From the NCBI GenBank assembly GCA_018268605.1, contig JAFDWG010000001.1:1-55122 (forward strand): DNA of 55,122 nt. The letters are read 5' to 3'. Source of the stretch: Actinomycetota bacterium (GTDB lineage: Bacteria; Actinomycetota; Thermoleophilia; Solirubrobacterales; 70-9). Every line of letters starts with the position of its first letter. Positions within the stretch are counted from its first letter, which is position 1. Positions 1 to 1,508 of this stretch are shown piece by piece. The notes under the pieces are model-generated. The model worked only from the letters and a program-made list of their open reading frames with translations. It did no database searches and was not told where the DNA came from. Position numbers and translations under genes: made by a program.

Positions 1-40
1 TCTCGGCCACGGCCCTGGCCGGCTGTGGCCGTGGCCGAGA
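1..40. repeat. Hairpin A with 12-nt loop CTGGCCGGCTGT
   Basis: Positions 1-14 and 27-40 are perfect inverted repeats (14 bp), enclosing a 12-nt loop at 15-26. The same 12-nt loop, reverse-complemented, is the loop of the hairpin at 373-414, whose stem sequence differs. An alternative hairpin, CGAGAC (36-41) with GTCTCG (48-53), competes with the 3' arm. The element may extend upstream of base 1. Confidence 0.75.
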
Positions 41-187
41 CGGCCGGGTCTCGTGGGGAGTGCGGCGGTCCCCTGGGCGTGCGCCGGGGTTCGTCACGTT
101 GGGAGGGACGGATCGGTGACGGGAGTCCCACGGATCCGTCACGAGACCCGCAAGTGGTGACGGAGAGCGTGGGAAGTCCACGCTCCC

Positions 188-209
188 GTGCGTGTTGCAC
201 AACACGCAC
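188..209. repeat. 22-bp perfect palindrome
   Basis: GTGCGTGTTG (188-197), CA, then CAACACGCAC (200-209) form an uninterrupted palindrome. It could be a dimeric-regulator operator or part of a folded RNA. No gene start lies within 200 bp on either strand, which argues against a simple promoter operator. Confidence 0.7.
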
Positions 210-213
210 TTCC

Positions 214-266
214 GCGCTGCGTGTATTTGGTCCCCTATAGGGGCCCCAAGTCACGCAGCGCTTTTT
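214..266 (+). terminator. Intrinsic terminator-like hairpin with T5 tail
   Basis: GCGCTGCGTG (214-223) pairs perfectly with CACGCAGCGC (252-261). Inside, TTGG/CCAA (227-230/246-249) and CCCC/GGGG around TATA (232-243) extend the stem. Five Ts (262-266) follow directly on the + strand. This is the form of a Rho-independent terminator for transcription entering from upstream of the window. There is no matching T-run on the minus strand. Confidence 0.6.
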
Positions 267-274
267 CGGGCCCT

Positions 275-333
275 GGAAGCGGTAAGGGAAGCTTCACGGA
301 AGTCCACGGAAACAGGTGGAAGGCTCGCGGAAG
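275..333. repeat. Six phased GGAAG/GGAAA repeats
   Basis: GGAAG or GGAAA begins at 275, 287, 298, 308, 318 and 329, spacings of 12, 11, 10, 10 and 11 bp, close to one helical turn. Such phasing places the repeats on one DNA face. The function is unknown; they could be protein-binding iterons or a chance purine-rich run. Confidence 0.5.
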
Positions 334-372
334 CGTGGAGTTCCCGACATCTCCTCGACTTCTTGCCAACGC

Positions 373-414
373 CGTCTCATCGCGGTCACAGCCGGCCAGG
401 ACCGCGATGAGACG
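373..414. repeat. Hairpin B with the same loop as hairpin A, inverted
   Basis: Positions 373-387 and 400-414 are perfect 15-bp inverted repeats. The loop 388-399 (ACAGCCGGCCAG) is the exact reverse complement of the loop at 15-26. It lies 29 bp beyond the stop codon of the minus-strand Gfo/Idh gene and may serve as its 3' end structure, although no T-run follows on that strand. Confidence 0.75.
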
Positions 415-443
415 CCCAGGCCACTGGTCGTGGAATCAACCAT

Positions 444-1508
444 CTAGGCCGGAGGTGGTGGCCGGCCGGCGATCTGTCGCGGCTGGTCGTAGGTCAGGCC
501 GACGGCCTCTCGCCAGCGATCGAGTGCGCGCATGTTCTCGAGGCTGTCTGCCCACGACATGCACGGCGACTGGCGCTGTCCGAGATGCTCGGCGACGTGG
601 TCGATCTGGTAAGTCAGAAGTGGCTTCGAGGCCGAGACCCGGACGACCTTCGTCGGCTTCCCCGCCCGGCGGATCCGGATCTCGGAATCCTCCGGCGGAT
701 AATCGGACCAACTCGGACGCACGACCTCCAGATCGCCCTCGGTGCCGAACACCTTGAGGCTGTGCTCCTCGCCGAGCACCATGCCGCAGCTGATGTAGGC
801 ATGGACGTCGCCCTCGAATCGGAGGGTCGCGGCGGCGAAGTGGTCCACGTTCTGGCCCGCGTCGATGTGGGCGGAGGCGGTGAGATCGAGCAGGTGGGCA
901 CCGTCGCCGTCCGCGGCGGCGGCAGCGATCATCCGGGCGGCCGAGAGCGGATAGCACCCGACGTCGAGGATCGAACCCCCGCCGAGGGCGTTCTCGAACA
1001 GTCGCGGCAGGGTATGCGTCTCGACCCCGAAGTACTCCGACGAGGTGATCAGGCGCGGGCGGCCGATCTCTCCGGCGCGGATCGCATCGATCAAGGCCGG
1101 CGTCTGAGGGTGCGTGCGATAGGCAAATGCCTCCATCAGGAACACGTCGTTGCGTTTCGCCGCCGCGACCATCGAGACCGCCTCGGCGTGGTCCATCGCG
1201 ATCGGCTTCTCACAGAGGACGTGCTTTCCGGCGTCCATCGCGGCGATCGACCACTCGGCATGCATGGGATGGGGCGTGGAGACGTACACCACGTCGACCT
1301 CGGGGTTGACCAGCAGCTCCTCGTAGCTTCCGTGCACATCGGGCACCTGGTGGCGCGCGGCGAAGTCCGCCGCCCGCTCCGGCGAGCGACTCGCCACGGC
1401 CGCCGGCCTGCCGGTGGCGGACTCCGCCATCGCCCGCGCGAACCGCTCGGCGATCCACCCGGCCGCCAAGAAGCCCCATCCGACCTGCTCGACCCGCGGC
1501 GCAGCCAT
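444..1508 (-). CDS. Gfo/Idh/MocA-family oxidoreductase
   Basis: A 354-aa cytoplasmic NAD(P)-dependent sugar or cyclitol dehydrogenase-type protein. The N-terminal Rossmann part starts at about residue 8 (GWGFLAAGWIAERFA), and the family EKP motif is seen in HVLCEKPIAMDHAEA (about residues 95-109), whose Lys is normally catalytic. The length matches the family (330-390 aa). The ATG at 1508 is preceded by a strong AGGAGGAG ribosome site. Its substrate cannot be told from sequence. It lies 88 bp downstream of the EamA exporter on the same strand, so the two may be cotranscribed. Confidence 0.9.
   Translation of the reverse strand: MAAPRVEQVGWGFLAAGWIAERFARAMAESATGRPAAVASRSPERAADFAARHQVPDVHGSYEELLVNPEVDVVYVSTPHPMHAEWSIAAMDAGKHVLCEKPIAMDHAEAVSMVAAAKRNDVFLMEAFAYRTHPQTPALIDAIRAGEIGRPRLITSSEYFGVETHTLPRLFENALGGGSILDVGCYPLSAARMIAAAAADGDGAHLLDLTASAHIDAGQNVDHFAAATLRFEGDVHAYISCGMVLGEEHSLKVFGTEGDLEVVRPSWSDYPPEDSEIRIRRAGKPTKVVRVSASKPLLTYQIDHVAEHLGQRQSPCMSWADSLENMRALDRWREAVGLTYDQPRQIAGRPPPPA

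Follow-up and report, generated by a model that had tools for sequence, protein, structure and literature searches.

This locus raises the question of what the first letters of the contig belong to, since two long hairpins stand there in a stretch devoid of genes, carrying the same loop on different stems. The first-pass annotation had suggested either a repeat family at the borders of a gene-free region or selection on a folded RNA or cruciform. The window, i.e. the whole stretch of 55,122 nt that was analysed, lies on contig C111 of the host MAG (G000; 375 contigs, 3.79 Mb). Window 1-443 is probably one copy of a dispersed, non-coding, non-autonomous repeat whose left end was lost at the contig break. 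The following features were recognized:

1..48, plus strand: terminal hairpin A, incomplete at the contig start (arms 1-14/27-40; loop CTGGCCGGCTGT at 15-26)
49..213, plus strand: internal module found in other copies, with smaller hairpins and the left half of a central imperfect inverted repeat
214..261, no strand: inner hairpin GCGCTGCGTG...CCCTATAGGG...CACGCAGCGC (24-nt arms, 83%)
262..372, plus strand: other (right) half of the rod formed by the central inverted repeat, in which GCGTGGAGTTCCC is paired to the region of GGGAAGTCCACGC
373..420, minus strand: terminal hairpin B, of the B1 type (arms 373-387/400-414; inverted loop at 388-399)
421..443, no strand: right border of the element, reaching to the adjoining gene's stop codon
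444..1508, minus strand: adjoining ORF, by appearance a putative Gfo/Idh/MocA-like oxidoreductase, its 3' end facing the element

Sequence reading and repeat finding revealed perfect stems of 14 bp in hairpin A and 15 bp in hairpin B, each closing a 12-nt loop, the two loops being exact reverse complements and hence inverted. CTGGCCGGCTGT has exactly two matches in the window, at 15-26 (plus strand) and 388-399 (minus strand); 0.39 matches are expected by chance with one mismatch allowed. Thus, the twin hairpins with a common inverted loop were found with arms and loops at the coordinates given in the first-pass annotation. The 14-bp stem of A is correct for the window but is not the real length: intact copies have a 19-bp stem (GGCCGTCTCGGCCACGGCC), and A appears shorter because the contig start cuts into its foot. 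Likewise, the stretch between A and B is not a separate region bounded by them but the remaining part of the element, with more hairpins (e.g. 214-261). The adjoining gene (444-1508, minus strand) ends about 30 nt past hairpin B. The element folds far better than its shuffles, both as DNA (z = -8.0) and as minus-strand RNA (z = -8.3).

Further copies are numerous. CTGGCCGGCTGT occurs 17 times in G000 (reversed control, 0) and 8 times in G006, other relatives being at about chance level. The left flank (AAGGGACGCAAGGG..GCGGCGAGCAC), which in the window copy falls outside the contig, is present in at least 57 copies in G000, 29 forward and 28 reverse, and in this species only. Hairpin A used as a DNA query yielded at least 40 scored copies, and a covariance model (R1) at least 92-100 matches each in G000, G003, G006, G007, G008 and G011. 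The proposed repeat family is therefore borne out by the left-flank copies and by the model matches in G000 and five sister genomes; the outcome that would have refuted it, no further copies with paired stems, did not occur, the many copies having strongly covarying stems. Many contigs of the MAG start or end within a copy (e.g. C15, C87, C109, C144), and its hundreds of contigs, the window start included, are partly due to such breaks.

Reading of the copies revealed a composite layout. The left flank leads into hairpin A, followed by a central inverted repeat that is imperfect and carries one or two inner hairpins at its tip; hairpin B comes next, inverted, and then a right flank that is less well conserved. 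The repeat is about 250-460 bp long in G000; the inverted ends, A(+)...B(-), lie about 200-800 nt apart in G000 and G006, with distances up to about 800 in G006. No cargo gene was found between A and B in the sampled loci. Window 1-226 shares 91% identity with the copy between ligA and dacB (L020). Stems of the inner hairpins in other copies derive from several unrelated families. As these inner hairpins appear to be further units of like style, and solo ones exist, the element appears to be a BIME/BOX-like composite. Several inner-hairpin stem families (window 214-261, L249:13293, L199:981) are common to several species (GTTGATGGGCCGAAAAC, GTACTTTGACC, CTGTTCCTTATGG, GGTGAGTTGA), and the apical loops are often of YAYR type (TATA, TATG, CATA, CACA). 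A tandem duplication of the left flank, AAGCTGTCGCCCGGAGGGAAGGGATGGGGCC, lies beside hairpin A in G006 (L042:1528-1725).

Both ends share a 12-nt loop tag, CKGGCNGGCTGT. In G000, the A hairpins have one stem, and their loops mostly follow the pattern C[TG]GGC[N]GGCTGT; the B hairpins use two block-swapped stems, ATCGCGGTC and ATGGAGGTC. Chimeric B1/B2 hairpins with one arm of each (L117, L139, L010) show that half-hairpins are exchanged. G006 and G007 carry this loop on different stems, one of them the unrelated GCGGATGCCGATCCGACC.... Seventeen distinct terminal hairpins from across the genus could be aligned without gaps. Eleven columns are invariant, seven of them in the loop, and the invariant columns include the loop core GC.GGCTG and the closing C-G. 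Sixteen of the 18 stem pairs have changed on both sides, and 97.4% of cells are paired (64.9% shuffled, 33-45% slid), a percentage inflated by the choice of the hairpins among sequences with at least 14/18 pairs; the covariation score was 0.869, compared with 0.256 after shuffling and at most 0.158 after sliding. Because the hairpins had been chosen partly for pairing, the motif alone was also examined, a test free of this bias. In 1.3 Mb from five genomes, 57 of the 80 GGC.GGCTGT motifs lay within a hairpin of the expected geometry, compared with none of 101 reversed or permuted control motifs. By alignment, covariation and motif-first counts, the conserved loop with compensated stems, noticed originally in two hairpins, is real and genus-wide. 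Pairing is the only demand on the stems, whose sequences are of several kinds, unrelated or block-swapped. Mismatches in A hairpins, examined as an RNA-versus-DNA test (G.T/T.G 15, A.C/C.A 26), were without clear strand bias.

A second loop tag, CTCCCSGCTGTT (CTCCCCGCTGTT class), was found in all 12 congeners at 1-17 copies per genome (control: 0 in ten). Sixteen copies, selected for a stem with at least 19/26 pairs, showed 90% pairing, compared with a mean of 54% and a maximum of 61% in shuffles, and 22 of the 26 stem positions use at least two pair types. The outer arms are merely 53% alike, so that nearly each site has its own stem. Long stems with near-unique outer arms are seen, for example, at L311 (G000 C257:11937), L313, L190:5077, L219:14989, L324 and L331. 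At nine loci outside the genus the second-tag motif lacks a stem.

The elements accumulate beside stop codons, chiefly between convergent genes. Where both neighbours were present in G000 (n = 43), 28 elements lay between convergent, 15 between co-directional and none between divergent genes, compared with 16, 136 and 43 of the other gene pairs at the same loci (Fisher p = 9e-15 for convergent, 1e-4 for divergent; gene orientations are approximate, from a custom gene caller). In 20-kb samples of G000, G006 and G007 (some of those from G006 and G000 chosen for holding the loop), hairpins with stems of at least 15 were present in 38 of the 137 convergent spacers, 25 of the 588 co-directional ones and 1 of the 129 divergent ones. 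In the G000 sample, 10 of 63 convergent spacers (about 16%) carry a hairpin. Pneumococcal repeats and REPs are also enriched between convergent genes, which has been judged to fit either parasitic mobile DNA or transcribed elements (PMC3049150, PMC3733652).

The repeats are restricted to one genus and mainly to one clade of six species. Apart from the six genomes rich in R1 matches, the model found 13 matches in G010, 2 in G009 and 1 in G005, and a single weak match among 49 other genomes of the family and order. DinB identity to the host groups the six rich species together (88-91% vs 75-79%), hence the expansion belongs to one clade. Among 84,980 species genomes, the exact hairpin pattern was found only in the congener SZAS-9 (six stretches) and in one Nocardioidaceae stretch without stem pairing; G006 matches this public Actinomycetota MAG. 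Searches of phages, plasmids and IMG/VR gave no match with the queries used, and a phage, plasmid or viral origin was rejected on these grounds. Hairpin-rich congeners have genomes of 3.8-4.7 Mb and hairpin-poor ones of 2.4-3.4 Mb.

Orthologous spacers were compared at two sites. The convergent pair dinB|rlpA-like is kept in eleven congeners; its stop-to-stop distance is about 480 nt in G000, compared with 5-22 nt in G006, G011, G007 and G003. In G008 this spacer holds a single hairpin of the inner type (L288, L292 and L293 are loci downstream of dinB), and G001 and G004 have in common another single hairpin, GGTTCCTTATGCAC...GTGCAAAAGGAACC. The ligA|dacB spacer is filled in G000 and G006, each with its own type, and contains other palindromic arrays in G007, G001 and G005; the remaining congeners have almost no spacer there. 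Filled and near-empty orthologous sites, as known for MITEs, indicate that the units are gained or lost whole. Presence and absence alone cannot separate insertion from loss; at dinB|rlpA-like, gain is the simpler reading, given the number of almost empty sister sites. At the outer edges no complementary borders or terminal inverted repeat was found, and no target duplication could be called against the empty sites, which are divergent.

Hairpins with free stems and a constant loop point to spreading DNA elements that are recognized by the loop, with a putative mobilising enzyme. We consider them probably REP/REPIN-like non-autonomous elements, with the tag in the loop and the stem free, moved in trans by such an enzyme. 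It would copy and insert the unit and would recognize the extruded hairpin via the loop rather than the stem, by analogy to REPINs, which are thought to depend on RAYTs; purifying selection may then leave copies mainly where two genes end. Inverted, loop-tagged ends on free but pairing stems would be expected of elements whose enzyme recognizes extruded hairpins by their loop. Known movers were searched for in the genomes, the MAGs being incomplete. Y1_Tnp (PF01797) was found in 0/12 congeners, the control being positive in 5/14 genomes, and a RAYT-driven REPIN was rejected for this reason. Neither RVT_1 nor IS110 is present in G000, G003, G006, G007 and G011, five of the six rich species, so that a reverse transcriptase or IS110 was rejected as the mover. 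A single reverse transcriptase gene is present in G010 and G008 only (L296, L297). As a bolder and rather doubtful extension, both tags might belong to a superfamily of mobile hairpins whose only address is the loop tag, about 12 nt long with GCTGT(T) at its end, on stems that are free and even site-unique (CTCCCCGCTGTT class). A hairpin-loop-recognizing enzyme, belonging to none of the known Y1, reverse transcriptase and IS110 groups, would move them, and they would insert at convergent stop-to-stop junctions.

The main rival is an RNA-level function at gene ends. The hairpins would then be transcribed 3'-UTR structures, serving between convergent genes as bidirectional roadblocks or mRNA 3'-end stabilisers, with an RNA-binding protein on the conserved loop and spread by recombination or occasional duplication. 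Location at stop codons between convergent genes, the very stable RNA fold of the minus strand (z = -8.3) and a kept loop on a compensated stem, typical of protein-bound RNA hairpins, are all in keeping with such a role. We nevertheless regard it as unlikely, since window 1-700 contains no U-tract terminator or promoter, a clear sense-strand G.U bias is lacking, no Rfam family matches, and only about 16% of the convergent spacers sampled in G000 carry a hairpin, sister species doing with 5-22 nt at dinB. An intrinsic terminator as such was rejected, a scan for GC hairpins followed by a U-tract having returned none in window 1-700. A known ncRNA was also rejected, as Rfam gave no match above the gathering score but only microRNA-precursor models far below threshold. 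On one strand of the window, the A loop is the exact complement of the B loop, and the two could in principle pair together within one transcript as an RNA kissing-loop. However, this complementarity follows from the inverted arrangement, and no covariation of the variable loop position was seen inside elements (A and B equal in 5/15, 5.07 expected), which makes a kissing-loop very improbable.

Convergent junctions are where supercoiling collects, and loops extruded at these positively supercoiled sites might serve as binding sites of gyrase or else of a nucleoid protein or recombinase, making the repeat a BIME-like cruciform or protein-binding element of the chromosome. Consistent with this are the single-stranded DNA fold (z = -8) and the precedent of BIMEs and REPs, which have been described as binding sites for several proteins (PMC2817692). 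Restriction to a clade and variable copy number argue against a general need, and this explanation appears improbable, more so than a 3'-UTR function.

Taken as mobile, loop-addressed DNA, the elements can be compared with known repeats. Pneumococcal BOX, RUP and SPRITE (PMC3049150) are likewise modular, highly folded, confined to few related species and enriched between convergent genes; BOX and RUP are, however, AT-rich with TIRs and target duplications, whereas the present repeats are GC-rich, with no TIR or duplication found, and have end hairpins with a common inverted loop. The repetitive hairpin-forming elements of sponge mitochondria (PMC2800124) resemble them in that divergent hairpins repeatedly invade and inflate intergenic regions in some lineages only, but are organellar, with no common loop tag or composite inverted ends shown, and homology is not claimed. 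With REP, REPIN and BIME sequences (PMC3116915, PMC3733652) they share dispersed extragenic palindromes in high copy, two inverted palindromes forming a unit, mosaic composites and a location near 3' ends and between convergent genes. The repeats are real, abundant and genus-restricted, and their layout is unlike that of described REP classes; they work REPIN- or BOX-like yet fail defining REP features, novelty being judged against open-access papers. Hundreds of copies with at least two loop tags within one genus provide an abundant natural covariation set for testing which hairpins, DNA or RNA, are targeted, and a loop-reading enzyme or protein is predicted to exist in this clade. A RAYT is expected for the GTAG class of REPs only, and here no RAYT/Y1 transposase was found in the genus. 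Described bacterial REPs are read by a tag, GTAG or CGTC, that stays unpaired at the base of a stem of 5-13 bp, with a loop of 4-5 nt in the CGTC class (PMC3733652). Here the conserved address is the 12-nt loop, and the 18-30 bp stem is interchangeable. CGTC in the A and B hairpins of G000 lies inside the paired stem, and it is lost in the B hairpins of G006 (GGGCGCCTC).
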